Made by a program: the position numbers and the translations under genes
Assembly (NCBI RefSeq): GCF_004358345.1
Contig: NZ_CP037952.1
Coordinates: 3,844,001 to 3,908,000 of the forward strand
DNA length: 64,000 nucleotides
Source: Parashewanella spongiae
Lineage (GTDB): Bacteria > Pseudomonadota > Gammaproteobacteria > Enterobacterales > Shewanellaceae
Direction of reading: 5' to 3'
Shown here: positions 2,193 to 55,575 of the stretch, in pieces
How the letters are laid out: the number at the start of each line of letters is the position of its first letter
How positions within the stretch are numbered: the first letter of the stretch is position 1
Notes under the pieces: generated by a model
Database searches by the model: none
Seen by the model: only the letters and a program-made list of their open reading frames with translations
Told to the model about the DNA's origin: nothing

Positions 2193-3800
2193 TTATTTTT
2201 CAGTGACGACTGTTTCTCGATAATTCCACGGTAGGTATTCTTCAGGATTGGTTTTCACTTTATCCTTCTCTCTCTGTAAAAATGTGAAATACTCAAACAC
2301 ATTGATGCCAGCTTCACTTGCTGTTGCAATCATTGACGTGATGACATCACCAATCGTAGCGCCAAGTAACGTCTTATGGAACATCGCATTTTTTCGGTCA
2401 CGAACGATGATTTTTAACATGGCTTCGATACGGTTATTATCGATGTATACACCTTCGTAGTGGCAAAAATAGCTCAAACCAACATAGTGTTTGACAAAAT
2501 ATCGCATCGCCTTACCTAAACCACTATTCTCTTCAACTGTTTCATCGTTAAGGTGTGTTGTACACCACTGCTTGATGGTTTTCATTACAGGCAACGAATG
2601 TTGCTGATGGTAACTCAGCCTTTCTGTTGCCGTAAACTTTTGCTCTTTAGTGTGCTGCTCGTAAGCCCAAATTTCACCATAACGTGTCAGTACGTGCTCG
2701 ACTTCATCGGGGAAATGGTTAATGACATCAACAAATTGTCGTCTGGCATGACTGTTACACAATGACAGCAGACATTCTCTTACCGTAGGGCGATTACTGA
2801 CCAGAGCGTCACTCATCATTATCGGCCTAGATTGATGAGTACCGCGTTTGTGCAACAGGCTATCGATGAATTCGCCAGCATGACCAATATTAGTTTCAAA
2901 CAACACGATACTATCATTGGCTTGAGTGGTCGCAATAACACCTGATGTGTACACGCCGCTGCGCATTTGTGTCTTGTCACTGTTACGCACCGGTTTTTCT
3001 ATTGGCGTAGCATCCAAAATTCGGTGAGTCGTGTCATCGAGATAATAATGCTTCGCATCGGCCGCGAGGTTAACCAACATTTGATAAACAGGGTAAATAT
3101 CATTGGCCACATATTCAACTTGGTCAAACACAGTAGACGCAGTGATTTTGACACCAAGCAGCTTTTGAATGCTCCCTTGGCGATAAAACGGCAACCCGGC
3201 AAAATACTTGTGTATGGCCATTAATGACCGAGCTGAGTAGCCGTATTTTTGTTGCTCGCTCCCGTCGGCTAACACTTCAACTGGCAAAGCGGCGGTAGCG
3301 TAAGCACCACAAGCATTACAGCGAAAGCGCTCCATGACATGCTGCTCTGGCTTAAACGGACTTTGCCCTGTGATACACAGTAAACTGCCTGGGTCGGTTT
3401 TGTACATTTTACCCATGTGGCACTCTAGGCAGTTATCACCCTTTTTCACATCTGTACTCTGATGCACTATCACAACTGGCTTAGCGGGAGTGAAATCTTC
3501 ACCGCTCTCTTTGGGTTTACGATTTTTACCCGCAGTGTGTTTACCGCTTCCTTTATTGCTTTTACTGACACGAGACAAGGCTTCTGAAGACTTTTCAATG
3601 CCAAGTAACTTACGCAATTTGTGCACGGTGACATCGTGATTGGTTAATCGTTGCTGCATCGTCGATAACGTCACTAAGGCATCAAGTAACAACTGACAAT
3701 CTTCTGGAGACAGTGCTAATTCATGCTCTCTGGCTTCAGTAACACGAACTATCAGTGCTTCCAGCGCGTTGTGGTCGATATCAGTAAACGGTTTACTCAT
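2193..3800 (-). CDS. tnpC: IS66 transposase TnpC
   Basis: 535-aa DDE transposase of IS66. The order of domains is an N-terminal helical segment with a coiled-coil-like stretch (about residues 30-70), a basic linker, a zinc-binding domain (CLECHMGKMYK ... RFRCNACGAYATA, about 120-170) and the catalytic core with HYYLDDTT (first Asp), the LLSLCNSHARRQFVD region, and the C-terminal VYIDNNRIEAMLKIIVRDRKN with the catalytic Glu. The C-terminal PWNYRETV box is also typical. It acts in trans with TnpA and TnpB of the same element. It appears complete and is nearly identical to the copy at 47516-49123. Confidence 0.95.
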   Translation of the reverse strand: MSKPFTDIDHNALEALIVRVTEAREHELALSPEDCQLLLDALVTLSTMQQRLTNHDVTVHKLRKLLGIEKSSEALSRVSKSNKGSGKHTAGKNRKPKESGEDFTPAKPVVIVHQSTDVKKGDNCLECHMGKMYKTDPGSLLCITGQSPFKPEQHVMERFRCNACGAYATAALPVEVLADGSEQQKYGYSARSLMAIHKYFAGLPFYRQGSIQKLLGVKITASTVFDQVEYVANDIYPVYQMLVNLAADAKHYYLDDTTHRILDATPIEKPVRNSDKTQMRSGVYTSGVIATTQANDSIVLFETNIGHAGEFIDSLLHKRGTHQSRPIMMSDALVSNRPTVRECLLSLCNSHARRQFVDVINHFPDEVEHVLTRYGEIWAYEQHTKEQKFTATERLSYHQQHSLPVMKTIKQWCTTHLNDETVEENSGLGKAMRYFVKHYVGLSYFCHYEGVYIDNNRIEAMLKIIVRDRKNAMFHKTLLGATIGDVITSMIATASEAGINVFEYFTFLQREKDKVKTNPEEYLPWNYRETVVTEK

Positions 3801-3890
3801 TAAAGGACAGTCCAGCTTAGGCGAATAGGAAAAATGAATTCGGCGGGCAGTATGATCCGATAAATAAAATAATCAACCGGTAAGTGCGAT

Positions 3891-4223
3891 TTATTTCAAG
3901 CGACTTGAAGATAAATAAGGTTCACCACTCAGTAATTGCCGTAATTGTGCCGCAGCCATCGGTTGCATAACGCCATGATGACGTGGCCATCCATGAAATT
4001 TTCCTTTTGATAACCGTTTGGTCATCAGCCAAAAGCCATTATGCTCATAAGTGAGGGCTCGTATCATGGTTTTGTTGCGATTAATGAAGACGAATATCGA
4101 GCCTGAACGCGGATTACTCGACAAGCGCTGTTGGCACACGGCCGCCAGTCCATCGATACCACAGCGAAAATCAGCAGGCTGAGTCGCAATGAAGATACGA
4201 CTGTTGGAAGTTAAATAGATCAT
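3891..4223 (-). CDS. tnpB: IS66 accessory protein TnpB
   Basis: About 110-aa IS66 Orf2 protein with the family signature ADFRCGIDGLAAVCQQ, then GSIFVFINRNKTMIR and the C-terminal GFWLMTKRL and GVMQPMAAAQLRQLLSG blocks. The start chosen is the ATG at 4223, because it overlaps the tnpA stop in an ATGA arrangement and gives the usual N terminus MIYLTSNSRIFIATQP; an upstream ATG at 4250 would add nine residues. The protein is required for IS66 transposition but its biochemical role is not settled. Confidence 0.9.
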   Translation of the reverse strand: MIYLTSNSRIFIATQPADFRCGIDGLAAVCQQRLSSNPRSGSIFVFINRNKTMIRALTYEHNGFWLMTKRLSKGKFHGWPRHHGVMQPMAAAQLRQLLSGEPYLSSSRLK

Positions 4224-4591
4224 GATTTCATTGCCCCGATGAGGGCGCAAATAAAGTGAACATCCACCACACCTTGTATATGAATATTGTCGCCATTAGA
4301 TAGATTCAACTCAAGTTTTACTGGGGAATTCGGCTTGATGACCTCAGGTAAGTTGGGTAATTCAATGAAGTCTGTAATGGACTCTGCCGAGTTTGATACC
4401 TGGCACCATTGTTTAAATTGAGAGCCACTGATACGTAAAGCGGTGCAAATTTGTGATGATGAGTAATGCTCTAGCAATGAAGTGGCTTGCTCGCGGAGAG
4501 TGTTTGGTATTTTAGTTCCGCGACTCGGCTTATTTATGCGCCAATGGGCGAAGACTGTGGCGACGCGAGTTAATGGCTCTATATTTGGCAT
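4220..4591 (-). CDS. tnpA: IS66 accessory protein TnpA (Orf1)
   Basis: 123-aa IS66 Orf1 protein. It contains a helix-turn-helix-like segment (residues 28-60, LREQATSLLEHYSSSQIC) and a conserved beta-rich C terminus (KLELNLSNGDNIHIQGVVD). It overlaps tnpB by four bases (ATGA), suggesting translational coupling. It probably binds DNA as part of the IS66 transposition complex. The second copy in the window differs at a few residues (for example GAMKS here, WAMKS there). Confidence 0.85.
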   Translation of the reverse strand: MPNIEPLTRVATVFAHWRINKPSRGTKIPNTLREQATSLLEHYSSSQICTALRISGSQFKQWCQVSNSAESITDFIELPNLPEVIKPNSPVKLELNLSNGDNIHIQGVVDVHFICALIGAMKS

Positions 4592-6126: not shown

Positions 6127-6735
6127 CTAACTGAATAACATCCTAAAACGTGCACCGTTGTCTGGTTGAACATAAGTCAAATCGCCGCCATGTTGCACCA
6201 TTATATGGCGGGATAAACTTAAACCAATACCAGAGCCTTGTGGTTTAGTAGTAAAGAAAGGCACAAAAATCATCTCATGCACATGTTCAGCGATGCCTTC
6301 ACCGTTATCAATAATATCGAGGCTTACTTGAGCACTTTCATTTTGATGTAGGCTAATCGTTATTTGCTTATTTTTGAGTTCACTTACCGCTTCTGTAGCG
6401 CTTTTTAAAAGGTTTATCAGTACCTGCTCTAACTGCGCAGCATCAGCCATTAATGAGTAATCACTGGGTAACTTCAGTTCCAAATCAACTTGCAATTGCT
6501 GCCATTGTGTTTCAAACAGCTTTAAGGTTCTGTTCACTAAATCTTTAAGTGAAGTGATTTGCAAATTCGGCGCTGGTAATTGGCTCAACGAGCGGAATCG
6601 ACCAATAAACTCATCCAAATGTGCAGTTCGCTTAGCAATGGTATCTAGTGCTAATTGTAAATCTTGCTTATCTTCCTCATCGTCAAAACTGAGCTGCTCT
6701 GGTATTAACGTGGTCGCAGTTTGTGATAATGAAGT
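6127..6735 (-). pseudogene. Sensor histidine kinase, C-terminal remnant
   Basis: C-terminal part of a two-component sensor kinase. The frame is open from the IS junction (TSLSQTATTLIPEQ) through a dimerisation-like helix (RTAHLDEFIGRFR) and an HATPase_c domain with the N box (LEQVLINLLKSATEA), G1 (DNGEGI) and G2 (GSGIGLSLSRHIM). It would bind ATP at the inner face of the membrane and phosphorylate a partner regulator. The N-terminal sensor part and the phospho-histidine region are missing; the frame is cut by the ISAzo13-type element at 6739. The best internal start is Met at 6618. Its likely partner is the receiver fragment at 8032-8306. Confidence 0.8.
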
Positions 6736-6738
6736 AAG

Positions 6739-8031: not shown

Positions 8032-8306
8032 TAATGCCTCGTTTTGCCACGGTTTGGCAATAAAATCAGCGGCTCCAGCTTTGATGGCTTGGACTGCTAA
8101 GTTCATATCGGCATAAGCCGTCATCATAATCACGGTAGTGCTTGGTTTCAGCGTTAAGATCTGCTTTAGCCAATGAAACCCCTCTTTGCCACTGATAGCA
8201 TCTTGAGTGAAGTTCATATCCAGCAGCACTACATCAATATCAAACTGGTTTAAGTAATGGCTGATTTGTTGCGGATCAGTTGTGGTTTTAACTTGTTGAT
8301 AGTGCT
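8032..8306 (-). pseudogene. Response regulator receiver domain, remnant
   Basis: Part of a CheY-like receiver domain. It shows the phospho-acceptor in FDIDVVLLDMNFT, the switch region VIMMTAYADM and the conserved lysine in AADFIAKPWQNE. The N-terminal acidic pair is replaced by sequence from the IS on the right (junction near 8307), and the C-terminal effector part is lost at the ISAzo13 insertion. With the kinase tail at 6127 this is what is left of an NtrC/AtoC-like regulator followed by its kinase on the minus strand. Rejoining across the IS does not restore one frame, so about 2 kb of host DNA was lost as well. Confidence 0.75.
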
Positions 8307-10008
8307 GGAACCCATCAGATACGGGTAACAAATAAATGAGAAAATCTGAGGAGAAAAACGTTATTTATTGAGATAATAAGCCGACTAAAACTATTCTCAA
8401 AATAAAATGCCGATACTCGACCGAACACCGCTTAACTCCTCAGACAAATTCGATCTTCTCTTAAAAACTATCGCTTGCCAAGTGCATGGTGCAGTTTCTT
8501 CTCTTTCTGATGAATTTAATGTTTCTCGTAAAGCCGTTTACTCCGCTAAATATGCGGCTCAATCGGCACTAAAGTGCCTTGTTACTACCAACGACGAATC
8601 TGATGTCATTACATCTGTAAATGTTGACGTACCACATCTTCGCCGTTCTATTGTGGCTTTATCAATCACAGCACCTAACTCTATTCGAGCAATTGAAGAA
8701 CAAATCCCACTCATTTATCCAGGCTGTAAAGTCAGTTACGGTTACATTCAAGGCGTTATCGTTGAAGCTCAAGAGCAGGCTGAGTTATTTAACGAAAAAG
8801 TGTCGCTATCAGCCATAAAGAGTGTGGCCATCGATGAGATGTTCAGCCAAGGTGACCCCGTACTTGCTGGGATAGATCTCGAAAGTGGTTATTTATTTTC
8901 ACTCTCTCACGAACAAAAGCGTGACGGTGAAACTTGGGCACGAGTTTTAGGTGAAGCTAAATCACAAGGATTATCACCTCAGCACGTCGTTAAAGATGGA
9001 GCAAAAGGAATAGCGAAAGGCGTTAGCATGAGCTTTGAACATGCAGAGCAACGTGATGATGCTTTCCATGCGTTGTATATCGTAGGTAAGGCGCTGAGAA
9101 AGGTTGAACGTCGGGCGTACTACTACATTGATAAAGAGGCTAGTTTGGAAAAAAGATTGCGTAAAGATGTATTCGATACAGAGAAAAAGCAGCAGGCAAT
9201 GGTTGATTTATTAGGCGTGCAAGCGAAATGTGAGCAAGCGATTGAGCAATATGAAAGTGGAACGAAAAGCAGAAATCATCTCCACCAAGCTTTGACCAGT
9301 ATTTCCATGAAAACGGGTAGCCTCATGACGAAAAAACAGGCTGAAGCCTTGCTAACGAAGGCTGTTGATGGCTTAAAAAATACTGAGCATAAAGATGGCA
9401 TCACCGCTGCTAGATACATAAAAAATCGTTTGAAAGGACTGACATTAGCAACTCAAGCACTTCACGAAAAGTTACTGAAACTTGGCGAACTTTATCCTCA
9501 AGAATGCGTTGAAGTGGCTTGTCGCTTCTCTGAACGAAAGCGCCAATTACGAAAAGCTAAACCTTGGAAAATAGCGCGGTATCAGAAAGAATTAGTTGGC
9601 AGTTATCAGTGGTTGCGACTCCGTTTAGGCAAGAGTGCCAGCGAACTTATGCTGCAAGTGGAAGCGTTGCATCAAACTCGCCACAGAGCATCAAGTGCCA
9701 TTGAAGGGTTTAATGCCACTCTACGGTCTTACCTTTATGTCCGTAAAGGAGTCAATCAAGGTTTCCTCGAGTTATTTAAAGCTTGGTACAACCTTCGCTC
9801 AAGACGCTGGGGGAAACATAAAGGAACTTCATCGTATCAGAATATCACAGGGAAAAAAGTTGATGACTGGCTAACAATGCTGAATTTTCCACCTTCGGAT
9901 TTACACCACTAAGCACTCACAAACTTTGTGTGATTTACGGTAGCGGTTCAACTGAGGTTGAGCTGGCGATCTCTCTTTGATTTGTTACCTTTAAGACCTA
10001 TGTTTTGA
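8307..10008 (+). mobile_element. Unclassified (ISNCY-like) insertion sequence, copy 1
   Basis: About 1.7-kb element with one transposase gene. Its left end begins near GGAACCCATCAGATACGGG, shared with the second copy at 23406. Subterminal inverted repeats are GGTAACAAATAAATGAG on the left (about 8325) and GGTAACAAATCAAAGAG read inward from the right (about 9990). The exact right end and the target duplication could not be fixed; the right end is estimated by symmetry. The insertion truncates tnsB on the right and the receiver gene on the left. Confidence 0.7.
8407..9912 (+). CDS. Transposase of unclassified IS (ISNCY-like), copy 1
   Basis: 501-aa protein. It has an N-terminal helix-turn-helix-like segment (residues 25-50, SLSDEFNVSRKAVYSAK), a DDE-like core beginning KSVAIDEMFSQGDPVLAGID (about 140-160), a second acidic site near HVVKDGAKGIAKG (about 195), a long helical middle and a C-terminal block SSAIEGFNATLRSYLYV followed by RRWGKHKGTSSYQ. 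These features fit a transposase whose IS family I do not place with certainty. The reading frame is complete in this copy; the second copy (23506) is identical up to residue 493 and then truncated. Confidence 0.8.
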   Translation: MPILDRTPLNSSDKFDLLLKTIACQVHGAVSSLSDEFNVSRKAVYSAKYAAQSALKCLVTTNDESDVITSVNVDVPHLRRSIVALSITAPNSIRAIEEQIPLIYPGCKVSYGYIQGVIVEAQEQAELFNEKVSLSAIKSVAIDEMFSQGDPVLAGIDLESGYLFSLSHEQKRDGETWARVLGEAKSQGLSPQHVVKDGAKGIAKGVSMSFEHAEQRDDAFHALYIVGKALRKVERRAYYYIDKEASLEKRLRKDVFDTEKKQQAMVDLLGVQAKCEQAIEQYESGTKSRNHLHQALTSISMKTGSLMTKKQAEALLTKAVDGLKNTEHKDGITAARYIKNRLKGLTLATQALHEKLLKLGELYPQECVEVACRFSERKRQLRKAKPWKIARYQKELVGSYQWLRLRLGKSASELMLQVEALHQTRHRASSAIEGFNATLRSYLYVRKGVNQGFLELFKAWYNLRSRRWGKHKGTSSYQNITGKKVDDWLTMLNFPPSDLHH

Positions 10009-10835
10009 TCAGTCCTAACTAATGCCTTAGCAACTGACACATACGATGGAGCTCTATAGCTAATATGAAATTCTACGACACAATTACTAAATACGTCTAT
10101 GAGGAGCGTAAGGTATGGCCTTCCAAGCGGTATATTGAGTTCGTCATCTACGAGAATTAAATCCAGTGGTGTGTGATCTATTTCCACCCTTTCTAGAATT
10201 CGAGTTGGCCGTATATGTGAAAGGCATTTCTCAAACATTCTATCCGCTAAATATTTACCATAGCGAGCAACAGCCTCGGGATATGGTGGTAACTTATTGA
10301 TTCGTCGATTAAAGCTTTTATATGAGATTTTTGGTATTTTGCCATCAACGATTTTGTTGTTTTCAATCGTAATTAAGTCACAATAATGCTCGTAGGCTTT
10401 CATTATCGATGGGCGTATTGCTTTGTAATACCTTTCTAGTGCAACTTTAAAGAACTCTTCATCGCCAGATATTCTTTTAGCTGTATTGCCTTTTTTCTGA
10501 TGAAAATCAACTAATGAAGTTATTTCACCTCCGCTGTCTTGGAATTTTTTCCTCCACCTAACTACTGTTCTCCAACTAGGAATCTTCTTTGTTTGCTCTG
10601 AATACAACTCAGCTAAGATAGGCTCTAAACTTTTTTTAGTCCAACCTGATGTTATCTTTTGTTGTATTAATGAAATAATCCTAAACCGCTCAATAGCTTG
10701 TTCCTTCAACTCGTTAGAATAAGTATCTAAATCTCGTTTTATTAATACCGACTCTTCTAATGGAATATATTGTTTCGGAGTAGTTGCCTGCTCTCTTTGA
10801 TAAATGTTTTCGAACTCATCTTTGAAGCTGCTCAT
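9948..10835 (-). pseudogene. tnsB: Tn7-like transposase TnsB, N-terminal part
   Basis: N-terminal 275 or so residues of a TnsB/TniA-type DDE transposase. It shows helix-turn-helix domains (residues 40-120, including WTKKSLEPILAELYSEQ and PSWRTVVRWRKKF), then the start of the integrase core RVEIDHTPLDLILVDD with the first catalytic Asp and RPYLTLLIDVFSNCVVEFH. The normal protein is about 550-700 aa. The frame runs into IS sequence near 10009, so the last 20 or so residues are not TnsB. It starts with an ATGA overlap to the stop of tnsA, the usual tnsAB arrangement. tnsC and tniQ are not found in the window. Confidence 0.88.
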
Positions 10836-11157
10836 GACTCACACCAAAAAGTAGGATTACCATCAAGTTTCTCATTGATGAGATCTACCTTAACTTTCCC
10901 TGTTGCTACGAGTTGCAATACATTAGCTCTTAAGTTTCCAATATCCTCTTCAAATTGAGTTAAAAGACAGAATAATGATAACCTCCCAACCTTGTGTATG
11001 ATGTTTAATATTTTTTCTTGAAGGTCATTTTCAAGTGTAAAACTTGAATAGCGGTGAAGTATTTTTAAATTTTCAAGTAATGGTTGTCTTCGGACTTGTT
11101 CATCTGTTACGAGAATTAAAGAAATACCTAATTTTTCTCCTGATTCCTTTCTGGCCT

Positions 11158-12394
11158 CAGGGCGGGATCGTGCTTTAGATCTTGAAAATAATTAAATCAA
11201 TTTTGAACTTTCCTGAGTAACGATGATCAGATCGACAAATGAATACTGATTTGAGTCTGATTATGGACGTAATGAAAGAGATTGAACAAGTTGAAGATTA
11301 TCGTGTTGAAGCTAATAAAGAGTATGATTTAGCTGATATTATTTTTCTTACAATTGCCGCAGTGCTTTGTGGTGCTACAGGCTGGAAAGCCATCAACATT
11401 TTCGGTGAAGCTCAATTAGATTGGTTAAGACAATATCGGCCATTTAGTAATGGCATCCCGACACAACACTCAATCGGACGGATAATTAGAGGTGTTAAAG
11501 CCGAAAGTATGATGTCTTGCTTTATTAACTTTTCCAATACATTACGGGAGCGAGATGGTAAAGAGCATATCAGTTTTGATGGTAAAGTTGCTTGTGGCTC
11601 TAAACACGGTGATGACATAGCGGCGCTTCAACTAATGACGGCAATGGTTGTAGATAATGGGCTGATAATACGTCAACAAGAAACGTCGACCAAAACGAAT
11701 GAAATCCCAGTAATGCAATCCATGCTAAAACACATGGATATTGAAAATGCAGTGATTACCGCTGACGCCATGCACTGCCAGAAAGAAACTGCAACCTTAA
11801 TACGTGAAGGAAAAGGTGATTACGTTCTTCAAGTGAAAAAGAATCAAGGTAAATTACTTGCTGAAATAGAAGCTTATTTTCATAAGTGCTATCGAGACAC
11901 ACCAGAGCTTTTAAAGCAGAATCACTTTACAGAGTTAGACGGTGAGCACGGACGAATAAATGAAAGACATTATCGCCTTTTGCCAATTACAAATTGGTTT
12001 GACGAAACGGCTAAATTTGTAGGCAGTCAGGCCGTTGTTGAAGTCACTCGGATGCGAGAAATGAAGAATAAATCAAGCCATGAAACGTCTTATTACATAA
12101 CCTCGTTAGCCAGTGACGTGGAAGGCATCGCTGGATATATACGGAAGCACTGGGCAATTGAAAATAGTCAGCATTGGGTTCTCGATGTCACTTTTAAAGA
12201 GGATGACTGTAAAATTTATGCTGATGATGGTGCAAAAAATTTAGCAACTATTAGGCGAAAGGTTTTGAACTTAATTAAAAATCACTCTTCAAAAGACAGT
12301 GTGGCTGGCAAGATACAGCGAGCCTGCTGGGATGCAAAATTTAGGGCTGAGATTTTATTTGGAGAATAATTCATCAAAGCATAATCCCGCCCTG
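11158..12394 (+). mobile_element. ISAs1-family element inside tnsA
   Basis: 1237-bp element with inverted ends CAGGGCGGGATCGTGCTTT (left) and CAGGGCGGGATTATGCTTT (right, read inward), flanked by the exact 10-bp duplication TTTCTGGCCT (11148-11157 and 12395-12404). It carries one intact transposase gene. It looks recent because both ends, the duplication and the gene are intact. Confidence 0.95.
11239..12369 (+). CDS. ISAs1-family transposase
   Basis: 376-aa ISAs1 (H-repeat-like) transposase, full length for the family. The N-terminal part shows DYRVEANKEYDLADIIFLT and LCGATGWKAI; the catalytic core shows HISFDGKVACGSK (first Asp), IENAVITADAMHCQKE (second Asp), DYVLQVKKNQGKL, and the C-terminal signature KHWAIENSQHWVLDVTFKED with the catalytic Glu. 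The start at 11239 follows the left inverted repeat by 81 bp. No frameshift is seen, so it is probably functional. Confidence 0.95.
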   Translation: MNTDLSLIMDVMKEIEQVEDYRVEANKEYDLADIIFLTIAAVLCGATGWKAINIFGEAQLDWLRQYRPFSNGIPTQHSIGRIIRGVKAESMMSCFINFSNTLRERDGKEHISFDGKVACGSKHGDDIAALQLMTAMVVDNGLIIRQQETSTKTNEIPVMQSMLKHMDIENAVITADAMHCQKETATLIREGKGDYVLQVKKNQGKLLAEIEAYFHKCYRDTPELLKQNHFTELDGEHGRINERHYRLLPITNWFDETAKFVGSQAVVEVTRMREMKNKSSHETSYYITSLASDVEGIAGYIRKHWAIENSQHWVLDVTFKEDDCKIYADDGAKNLATIRRKVLNLIKNHSSKDSVAGKIQRACWDAKFRAEILFGE

Positions 12395-12796
12395 TTTCTG
12401 GCCTTAAATCGCACTTTGAACTCAGACTTTAGCGCTTGCCTGATTGCTTTATATTCAATATATTGTTTAGTCTGATCTTTAAAAGTGATCACTGCGTCTG
12501 GGGTATACGGAAGCTCCTTTCCTTCAAAATGATACTTGTAACCTTTCGGCTGAGATTCAAAACTAACAACGTCCTCGTCAAATTCATGATGAAAACAAGC
12601 GTCAAACTCAATAGTACCTTCACACATAACTATTTTATTTGTTTTTATACTCACAAATTTAAGAACGCTTTTATTGGGAGAAGCTTTGCGAAGATTTCTG
12701 ATGTACATCTCAAAACCATTAAATTAAGCAAAGTAATCTTAAGAGGATAATCACACTTTTAATTTTGAGATAATAAATACTTTTTTACGATAAGAT

Positions 12797-12908
12797 ATTT
12801 GACAACTTATGGGTTAGATTTGTCATCTTATGATGTGATTTATAACAGGTTATGGGTTAAATTTGTCACTATATGGGTAAAATTTGTCATCTTATGGGTA
12901 CAATGACA
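12797..12908. other. Tn7-like transposon end with repeated TnsB-site-like motifs
   Basis: Read on the minus strand from 12908 the sequence starts TGTCATTGT and then repeats an ACCCATAA-type motif followed by TGACAAAT: sites at about 12883-12899, 12862-12878, 12840-12857 (degenerate), 12817-12832 and 12797-12814. Tn7-like transposons begin 5'-TGT and carry several ~20-bp TnsB sites in each end. The spacing is dense (21 bp or so), as in right ends next to tnsA. The five bases beyond (12909-12913, AATAA) would be the target duplication; the other end is not seen. The 6S RNA gene ends about 30 bp further on. Confidence 0.78.
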
Positions 12909-12943
12909 AATAAAACTCAATATTTACCGTAAGTTATTGATTG

Positions 12944-13134
12944 GATTGCTCCCCAAGATACCGTTATCAGCTTAGCCCTTGAACCGTAGGTTCAAGGCGG
13001 GTAAACGATAACTTCCTAAGGCTTCTCGATACGAGCCGAGCTTGCACAATGTCAGCCAAACATTCACCCTTAAGTCAAAATTATCGGCACAGGGACATTA
13101 CTGATTAGAACATGTATCCCAGGGAGCAAATTTG
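12944..13134 (-). ncRNA. ssrS: 6S RNA
   Basis: The minus strand shows a 6S RNA: the closing stem pairs GCTCCCTGGGATAC (5' arm) with GTATCTTGGGGAGC (3' arm), and the conserved internal parts GCTCGGCTCGTATCGAGAAG and CCTTGAACCTACGGTTCAAG match enterobacterial 6S RNA. The gene lies directly downstream of zapA, as in E. coli. 6S RNA binds sigma-70 RNA polymerase in stationary phase. Ends are approximate (about 190 nt). In E. coli the next gene is ygfA; here a Tn7-like transposon end takes that place. Confidence 0.92.
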
Positions 13135-46724: not shown

Positions 46725-47096
46725 ATGCCAAATATAGAGCCATTAACTCGCGTCGCCACAGTCTTCGCCCATTGGCGCATAAATAAGCCGAGTCGCGGAA
46801 CTAAAATACCAAACACTCTCCGCGAGCAAGCCATTTCATTGCTAGAGCATTACTCATCATCACAAATTTGCACCGCTTTACGTATCAGTAGCTCTCAATT
46901 TAAACAATGGTGCCAGGTATCAAACTCGGCAGAGTCCATTACAGACTTCATTGAATTACCCAACTTACCTGAGGTCATCAAGCCCAATTCCCCAGTAAAA
47001 CTTGAGTTGAATCTATCTAATGGCGACAATATTCATATACAAGGTGTGGTGGATGTTCACTTTATTTGCGCCCTTATCTGGGCAATGAAATCATGA
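46725..47096 (+). CDS. tnpA: IS66 accessory protein TnpA (Orf1), copy 2
   Basis: 123 aa, nearly identical to 4220-4591; differences include LREQAISLL for LREQATSLL and LRISSSQFKQ for LRISGSQFKQ. Helix-turn-helix-like middle and the KLELNLSNGDNIHIQGVVD tail as in copy 1. Overlaps tnpB by ATGA. Confidence 0.85.
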   Translation: MPNIEPLTRVATVFAHWRINKPSRGTKIPNTLREQAISLLEHYSSSQICTALRISSSQFKQWCQVSNSAESITDFIELPNLPEVIKPNSPVKLELNLSNGDNIHIQGVVDVHFICALIWAMKS

Positions 47097-47425
47097 TCTA
47101 TTTAACTTCCAACAGTCGTATCTTCATTGCGACTCAGCCTGCTGATTTTCGCTGTGGTATCGATGGACTGGCGGCCGTGTGCCAACAGCGCTTGTCGAGT
47201 AATCCGCGTTCAGGCTCGATATTCGTCTTCATTAATCGCAACAAAACCATGATACGAGCCCTCACTTATGAGCATAATGGCTTTTGGCTGATGACCAAAC
47301 GGTTATCAAAAGGAAAATTTCATGGATGGCCACGTCATCATGGCGTTATGCAACCGATGGCTGCGGCACAATTACGGCAATTACTGAGTGGTGAACCTTA
47401 TTTATCTTCAAGTCGCTTGAAATAA
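47093..47425 (+). CDS. tnpB: IS66 accessory protein TnpB, copy 2
   Basis: About 110 aa from the ATG at 47093 (MIYLTSNSRIFIATQP), chosen for the ATGA overlap with tnpA; same family blocks as in copy 1 (ADFRCGIDGLAAVCQQ, GSIFVFINRNKTMIR). Identical in this part to copy 1. Confidence 0.9.
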   Translation: MIYLTSNSRIFIATQPADFRCGIDGLAAVCQQRLSSNPRSGSIFVFINRNKTMIRALTYEHNGFWLMTKRLSKGKFHGWPRHHGVMQPMAAAQLRQLLSGEPYLSSSRLK

Positions 47426-47515
47426 ATCGCACTTACCGGTTGATTATTTTATTTATCGGATCATACTGCCCGCCGAATTCATTTTTCCTATTCGCCTAAG
47501 CTGGACTGTCCTTTA

Positions 47516-49123
47516 ATGAGTAAACCGTTTACTGATATCGACCACAACGCGCTGGAAGCACTGATAGTTCGTGTTACTGAAGCCAAAGAGCATGAATTAG
47601 CACTGTCTCCAGAAGATTGTCAGTTGTTACTTGATGCCTTAGTGACGTTATCGACGATGCAGCAACGATTAACCAATCACGATGTCACCGTGCACAAATT
47701 GCGTAAGTTACTTGGCATTGAAAAGTCTTCAGAAGCCTTGTCTCGTGTCAGTAAAAGCAATAAAGGAAGCGGTAAACACACTGCGGGTAAAAATCGTAAA
47801 CCCAAAGAGAGCGGTGAAGATTTCACTCCCGCTAAGCCAGTTGTGATAGTGCATCAGAGTACAGATGTGAAAAAAGGTGATAACTGCCTAGAGTGCCACA
47901 TGGGTAAAATGTACAAAACCGACCCAGGCAGTTTACTGCGTATCACAGGGCAAAGTCCGTTTAAGCCAGAGCAGCATGTCATGGAGCGCTTTCGCTGTAA
48001 TGCTTGTGGCGCTTACGCTACCGCCGCTTTGCCAGTTGAAGTGTTAGCCGACGGGAGCGAGCAACAAAAATACGGCTACTCAGCTCGGTCATTAATGGCC
48101 ATACACAAGTATTTTGCCGGGTTGCCGTTTTATCGCCAAGGGAGCATTCAAAAGCTGCTTGGTGTCAAAATCACTGCGTCTACTGTGTTTGACCAAGTTG
48201 AATATGTGGCCAATGATATTTACCCTGTTTATCAAATGTTGGTTAACCTCGCGGCCGATGCGAAGCATTATTATCTCGATGACACGACTCACCGAATTTT
48301 GGATGCTACGCCAATAGAAAAACCGGTGCGTAACAGTGACAAGACACAAATGCGCAGCGGCGTGTACACATCAGGTGTTATTGCGACCACTCAAGCCAAT
48401 GATAGTATCGTGTTGTTTGAAACTAATATTGGTCATGCTGGCGAATTCATCGATAGCCTGTTGCACAAACGCGGTACTCATCAATCTAGGCCGATAATGA
48501 TGAGTGATGCTCTGGTCAGTAATCGCCCTACGGTAAGAGAATGTCTGCTGTCATTGTGTAACAGTCATGCCAGACGACAATTTGTTGATGTCATTAACCA
48601 TTTCCCCGATGAAGTCGAGCACGTACTGACACGTTATGGTGAAATTTGGGCTTACGAGCAGCACACTAAAGAGCAAAAGTTTACGGCAACAGAAAGGCTG
48701 AGTTACCATCAGCAACATTCGTTGCCTGTAATGAAAACCATCAAGCAGTGGTGTACAACACACCTTAACGATGAAACAGTTGAAGAGAATAGTGGTTTAG
48801 GTAAGGCGATGCGATATTTTGTCAAACACTATGTTGGCTTGAGCTATTTTTGCCACTACGAAGGTGTATACATCGATAATAACCGTATCGAAGCCATGTT
48901 AAAAATCATCGTTCGTGACCGAAAAAATGCGATGTTCCATAAGACGTTACTTGGCGCTACGATTGGTGATGTCATCACGTCAATGATTGCAACAGCAAGT
49001 GAAGCTGGCATCAATGTGTTTGAGTATTTCACATTTTTACAGAGAGAGAAGGATAAAGTGAAAACCAATCCTGAAGAATACCTACCGTGGAATTATCGAG
49101 AAACAGTCGGCACTGAAAAATAA
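47516..49123 (+). CDS. tnpC: IS66 transposase TnpC, copy 2
   Basis: 535 aa, same domains as the protein at 2193-3800; differences are single residues (TEAKEHE for TEAREHE, SLLRITG for SLLCITG, ETVGTEK for ETVVTEK). Zinc-binding CLECH/CNAC pairs and DDE motifs are all present, so the copy appears active. Confidence 0.95.
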   Translation: MSKPFTDIDHNALEALIVRVTEAKEHELALSPEDCQLLLDALVTLSTMQQRLTNHDVTVHKLRKLLGIEKSSEALSRVSKSNKGSGKHTAGKNRKPKESGEDFTPAKPVVIVHQSTDVKKGDNCLECHMGKMYKTDPGSLLRITGQSPFKPEQHVMERFRCNACGAYATAALPVEVLADGSEQQKYGYSARSLMAIHKYFAGLPFYRQGSIQKLLGVKITASTVFDQVEYVANDIYPVYQMLVNLAADAKHYYLDDTTHRILDATPIEKPVRNSDKTQMRSGVYTSGVIATTQANDSIVLFETNIGHAGEFIDSLLHKRGTHQSRPIMMSDALVSNRPTVRECLLSLCNSHARRQFVDVINHFPDEVEHVLTRYGEIWAYEQHTKEQKFTATERLSYHQQHSLPVMKTIKQWCTTHLNDETVEENSGLGKAMRYFVKHYVGLSYFCHYEGVYIDNNRIEAMLKIIVRDRKNAMFHKTLLGATIGDVITSMIATASEAGINVFEYFTFLQREKDKVKTNPEEYLPWNYRETVGTEK

Positions 49124-49329: not shown

Positions 49330-49380
49330 CTTGGGTACAGTGACCAATGACTGTACCCAGTTTATGGGTACAGTGAGAAA
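49330..49380. repeat. Cluster of GGTACAGTGA repeats
   Basis: TGGGTACAGTGACC, GACTGTACCCAG and ATGGGTACAGTGAG occur within 45 bp, forming a direct pair and an inverted copy. The TATGGGTACA part recalls the Tn7-like end at 12891-12902, but spacing and flanks differ. It lies between IS66 copy 2 and a MITE; no gene is near. Confidence 0.45.
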
Positions 49381-55350: not shown

Positions 55351-55575
55351 GTGCGACGTGATGTCGTATGGAGCGCTGTTCACCGCTAGAAGAGTGAATC
55401 TGCCGTATCACCGGTTGAACCTAGGACTCTGAATGAAGTAGCGAGTCTGACAATGTAATGAAGTCGATTCGACGGGAAAATAATCCTGAGAGGACATTCC
55501 TCCTGATAACCACATGAATCGGGTAAATGCTAGGTAGTCAGTATGATCAACATAAGTGAATCCGAAAGATTTCTT
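55351..55575 (+). mobile_element. 5' fragment of a second group II intron
   Basis: Begins GTGCGACGTGATGTCG, a match to the GUGYG start of group II introns, followed by GGAGCGCTGTTCACCGCTAG and AGAAGAGTGAATCTGCCG-type domain I sequence and ATCCTGAGAGGACATTCC. It is cut at about 55575 by an ISKra4 fragment. No reverse-transcriptase part is present. It differs from the intron at 1-5490. Confidence 0.6.

Follow-up and report, generated by a model that had tools for sequence, protein, structure and literature searches.

A 64,000-nucleotide stretch of the Parashewanella spongiae chromosome (positions 3,844,001-3,908,000; the window) contains a decayed Tn7-like transposon just behind the 6S RNA gene ssrS, and we interpret it as the surviving right-end part of a CRISPR-associated transposon (CAST) of type I-F3b. 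In this reading, to which we give a probability of a little under 0.8, the element had the 3' end of ssrS as its homing site and most likely found it by means of a crRNA. On the minus strand the order is zapA, the 6S gene, a 37-bp spacer, the TGT terminus of the transposon at 12908, tnsA and tnsB (Table 1), and ssrS is present in a single copy in the complete 5.47-Mb chromosome. A Tn7-like remnant next to the 6S gene had been proposed in a preliminary description of this DNA, and the TnsA and TnsB matches, the repeated boxes of the end and the Rfam match RF00013 bear this out; the end does adjoin the gene as described there, but the gap is 37 bp (12908 to 12946) rather than about 30 bp.

Table 1. 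Features of the transposon remnant and of its surroundings, in window positions
Feature	Position	Strand	Remarks
Histidine-kinase fragment	6130-6738	minus	partner of the response regulator; 80% identity to the OPT22 gene
Response-regulator fragment (residues 26-117)	8032-8307	minus	chromosomal flank; 92% identical to the OPT22 gene
ISL3-like IS	8307-10016	plus	multi-copy; without target duplication here
tnsB	10017-10835	minus	about residues 1-273 of ~617 left; remainder deleted
tnsA, C-terminal part	10832-11157	minus	stop codon overlaps tnsB start (10835) as ATGA
ISAs1-like IS inside tnsA	11158-12394	plus	transposase 11239-12369
tnsA, N-terminal part	12395-12708	minus	PF08722 TnsA-like_N, E 7e-07; 45-51% identity to relatives
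tnsA-side transposon end	12797-12908	minus	terminal TGT 12906-12908; ACCCATA boxes at offsets 9, 30 and 51, more inside
AATAA	12909-12913		would-be 5-bp target duplication; other end deleted
Candidate 32-nt protospacer in 6S, TACGGTTCAAGGGCTAAGCTGATAACGGTATC	12957-12988	minus	CC PAM 12989-12990; 48 bp from the end
6S RNA gene ssrS	12946-13128	minus	Rfam RF00013, 107.7 bits

Among the features by which Tn7-like elements are recognised, TnsA and TnsB genes and an end that starts with TGT and carries repeated TnsB sites are present. The minus-strand arrangement of tnsA and the first half of tnsB, with their ATGA overlap (10832/10835), is as first described, although the fact that tnsA is split by an ISAs1-like insertion sequence (IS) had been missed; this IS lies between the two perfect copies of a 10-bp target duplication, TTTCTGGCCT (11148-11157 and 12395-12404). 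The tnsB open reading frame is 295 codons long, is homologous over about residues 1-274 and runs through its final ~20 codons into the end of the ISL3-like IS. Four ACCCATA boxes and one degenerate box lie within 12797-12908, in agreement with the earlier count of about five motifs in a TGT-starting end, and this tnsA-side end faces the 3' end of ssrS, also as stated earlier. Three TSACTGTACCCA motifs, which resemble the CAST terminal motif, are clustered in mixed orientation at window positions 49332-49376; the window holds four such motifs where 0.15 would be expected, far above chance.

The TnsB protein is 53-60% identical to its closest relatives; these come from Shewanella and related genera, where the elements follow rsmJ, cobO or a hypothetical gene (rsmJ and cobO were recognised by sequence, and rsmJ also by tblastn). 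A maximum-likelihood tree places it with the rsmJ-type elements in a nine-row clade with 100/98 support, where it forms a separate branch of the I-F3b clade whose exact place beside those elements is supported by values of only 84/50. Among proteins in the PDB the best match is PseTnsAB (E 3e-102), followed by Tn6677, a type I-F3a element (E 2e-30), and Tn7 (E 2e-06). Taken together, the TnsB identities, the clade, the ranking of the structures and the box spacing of the end identify the remnant as that of a type I-F3b CAST, and the kinship with I-F3 proteins that the preliminary description had raised is thereby narrowed to the I-F3b clade, with PseTnsAB as the best solved match.

Like the rsmJ and cobO I-F3b CASTs of Shewanella and Pseudoalteromonas (kin of PseCAST), the remnant has separate TnsA and TnsB with overlapping frames and a tnsA end that points toward the 3' end of the target gene, and its box register of 9/30/51 is the one common to that group and is found in the hypothetical-gene relatives as well. 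It differs from the rsmJ/cobO group in its proposed attachment gene ssrS, which is a non-coding RNA gene, in being dead, in the separate branching of its TnsB and in its terminal octamer, which is TGTCATTG as opposed to TGTCGCTG. The I-F3b elements at ffs likewise have their tnsA end turned toward a conserved small RNA gene that they follow, but their target is the SRP RNA, and they account for most of the next TnsB group, whose identities are mainly 38-50%. The I-F3 CASTs adjoining parE in Parashewanella are Tn7-like, carry Cas6 and come from the same genus, but their TnsB proteins are 35-38% identical to that of the remnant and form a different clade, and their attachment is protein-directed. 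Tn7 itself, which uses TnsD and glmS, has in common with the remnant the plan of a tnsA end placed at the 3' end of a conserved gene, though the TnsB similarity is distant.

Most of the element is gone. The ISL3-like IS directly adjoins the tnsB fragment on one side and the response-regulator fragment on the other and has no target duplication, so an IS-associated deletion most likely removed the rest of tnsB, tnsC, the tniQ-cas genes and the second end. In Shewanella sp. OPT22 the response-regulator/histidine-kinase pair is intact and lies ~34 kb downstream of ssrS. The death of the element would thus have involved one IS that split tnsA and an IS-associated deletion reaching from the middle of tnsB to the chromosomal flank, which would explain the missing second end. 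The preliminary description had looked to the DNA outside the window for this end and for the tnsC, tniQ and cas genes of the element, and none of them turned up: with up to two mismatches allowed, the sequence TGACAAATTTAACCCATAA does not recur in the 5.47-Mb genome beyond the present end, neither the terminal 17-mer nor the 19-mer motif led to a second end in the P. spongiae genome, and the 504 kb around the locus contain no fragments of tnsC, tniQ, cas or Xre genes. The only TniQ and Cas6 of the genome belong to a separate CAST at ffs. This second element (~1,986,396-1,995,159; locus L051, 4397-13160) has intact core genes, namely a fused TnsA-TnsB of 822 amino acids, TnsC, TniQ, Cas8/5, Cas7 and Cas6, and an array whose last spacer matches ffs 50 bp from the end; an 834-amino-acid TnsB reading frame at locus L033 may be another natural TnsAB fusion.

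The junction between ssrS and the transposon end recurs in the genus. About 85,000 GTDB genomes, one per species, were scanned for a hairpin motif of the 6S type with an I-F3 end at a distance of 50-80 bp after it, and two of the 13 matches lie behind genuine 6S genes, both in congeners, P. hymeniacidonis and OPT22; the remaining 11, all outside the Gammaproteobacteria, are taken as chance. In P. hymeniacidonis the end is present as a 32-bp tandem duplication, the second copy of which runs to the box at +30, and in OPT22 about 20 bp of the end stand behind ssrS and are followed by a GMT (gamma-mobile-trio) island (locus L100, 791-984 onward). That the OPT22 sequence is simply a part of this island was considered and ruled out, because GMT islands elsewhere do not have it (three plasmid GMT islands are without the end sequence), and it is therefore assigned to a CAST scrap. 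We note that OPT22 thus shows the entry of a second kind of mobile element at the same spot behind ssrS. The ends in these sister species are scraps of 17-70 bp without tns genes, the P. hymeniacidonis contig stopping ~0.6 kb past the end. Three of the five genus genomes carry the 17-mer TGTCAYTGTACCCATAA next to ssrS, and it has no exact match elsewhere in the five; this restriction of the terminal sequence to ssrS makes the latter well supported as the attachment gene.

The preliminary description had already named ssrS in this role, and the same end at ssrS in two relatives speaks for it; the contrary pattern, the same end between unrelated flanks, does not occur among the exact 17-mer matches in the genus. 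Uninterrupted ssrS regions exist as well: in the other two of the five species ssrS is followed immediately by other genes, and the transposon end is absent. ygfA, whose absence had also been remarked on, is indeed not in the window, but it is likewise not beside ssrS in these two insertion-free congeners. Of 50 other genomes of the order with a TnsB gene, not one has its element at 6S, and neither does any of 27 Shewanellaceae loci, one of which is too short to tell; viral contigs gave neither an ssrS junction nor a TnsB relative, and the plasmid TnsB relatives among the matches listed are at most 45% identical.

Such a distribution bears on two ways in which the end could have come to lie beside ssrS other than by homing. 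A chance or off-target insertion would fit with the single known copy that has tns genes and with the missing guide; it is nevertheless quite unlikely, given that the terminal sequence is behind ssrS in three genus genomes of five and nowhere else in them, in an orientation and at a distance typical of homing events. Even though the region is rich in insertion sequences, we find it scarcely credible that an IS-mediated rearrangement carried a CAST end to ssrS, as there is no IS or repeat between the terminus and the 6S gene and the terminus is intact and in register.

Under the homing reading, the three occurrences could descend from one ancestral insertion inherited by three species, so that ssrS was homed to a single time. 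The ZapA protein of the window genome is nearer to those of the two carriers (about 76%) than to those of the two non-carriers (63%), as expected from such descent; speaking against it, the 39-42 bp that separate 6S from the end show no alignment when the window is compared with the sister species, although within the end itself they agree at 34 of the first 38 positions. We regard a single insertion as plausible, but lean somewhat toward repeated insertion at ssrS. The broader proposal, that a separate I-F3b CAST lineage guide-homes to ssrS and did so on more than one occasion in a single genus, we consider evenly balanced.

The preliminary description had left the choice between a TniQ/TnsD protein and a guide RNA undecided, and the placement in I-F3b favours the guide RNA. 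Arrays of relatives were located via Cas6 searches, and in five relatives, which include rsmJ, ffs and hypothetical-gene cases, the last spacer matches the gene beside the tnsA end. Of 32 positions, 3 to 12 are mismatched, many of them wobble positions of coding targets; the protospacers lie 49-51 bp from the TGT and have C at PAM position -2 (CN PAMs). Guide-RNA homing is, by these spacer matches, the rule in this I-F3b clade. Among the other loci, an I-F3b CAST (L042, 3670-4297, with L121) lies behind a gene for a ~208-amino-acid hypothetical protein that its last spacer matches with 8 mismatches, 49 bp from the end; this type of gene is also the target at L175, L181 and L192. Alternatively, a DNA-binding TnsD/TniQ protein dedicated to ssrS could have directed an I-F3-like element there, as in the parE CASTs, since Parashewanella does carry CASTs adjoining parE, that of P. 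curva has been published as parE-targeting through TnsD, and the loss of tniQ from the remnant leaves room for it. We judge this unlikely, as the TnsB of the remnant groups with guide-homing I-F3b elements, far from the parE clade, and its close relatives with readable arrays home by guide.

In the favoured, guide-directed reading, a TniQ-Cascade complex with a homing crRNA would most likely have matched the conserved 3' hairpin region of 6S, and TnsABC would have inserted the element, tnsA end toward the gene, at a distance of ~48 bp past the protospacer, leaving 6S intact. With the guide, the tniQ-cas genes and the second end gone, we infer both the crRNA and its protospacer. The 48-bp spacing of the candidate is 1 bp below the range of the relatives, and spacings of 49-51 bp would leave PAM position -2 without a C. 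The corresponding 6S site of the sister species lies at a distance of 51-52 bp (CC) or 50-51 bp (CT). By chance, at least one spacing in the five-base range of 47-51 bp would offer a C at -2 in ~76% of cases, so the candidate protospacer is compatible with guide homing but weak evidence on its own. Within 504 kb around the locus only weak matches to ssrS-like spacers were seen. The I-F-type repeats of the genus are confined to CAST arrays, one single repeat (G395) and one orphan array, and none of the spacers in the genus I-F-type arrays fits any 6S better than shuffled spacers do; plasmids yielded no ssrS spacer, the one match being in a 4.9-Mb record filed as a plasmid. The orphan array has three I-F-like repeats (GTCAGCTGCCGCACACGCAGCTTAGAAA) with a 60-bp period at genome positions 3,834,172-3,834,321 (L003, 10172-10321), ~20 kb from the CAST remnant, and its spacers have no 6S match.

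According to a review (PMC11406308), guide-directed insertion falls mainly at guaC, yciA, ffs and rsmJ, and insertion at parE is directed by TnsD; a 2026 study (PMC12774636) found that four loci take 94% of I-F3 homing, and a Shewanella survey (PMC12452197) adds cobO, ParM/StbA-type and hypothetical genes. ssrS is not among the published sites yciA, ffs, guaC, rsmJ, cobO and parE in the main texts covered, which comprise a part of the primary attachment-site papers, and literature searches returned no relevant paper that combines ssrS or 6S RNA with Tn7-like or CRISPR-associated transposons. It would thus be, as the preliminary description had supposed, a less familiar target, and probably a newly recognised CAST homing site. 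As a second small-RNA gene besides ffs it would support the view that short, highly conserved RNA genes are good guide targets, and would show that new homing spacers do arise. ssrS also becomes a locus at which an intact element carrying an ssrS guide can be sought, the remnant offers a naturally divergent I-F3b TnsB, and the locus is a case of attachment-site decay in which dead ends persist behind a conserved gene.

Two near-identical IS66-type elements lie in opposite orientation ~42 kb apart in the window (2193-4591 and 46725-49123) and could invert the stretch between them, ssrS included. A group II intron domain match (RF02012, 57 bits) is located at window positions 55399-55530.
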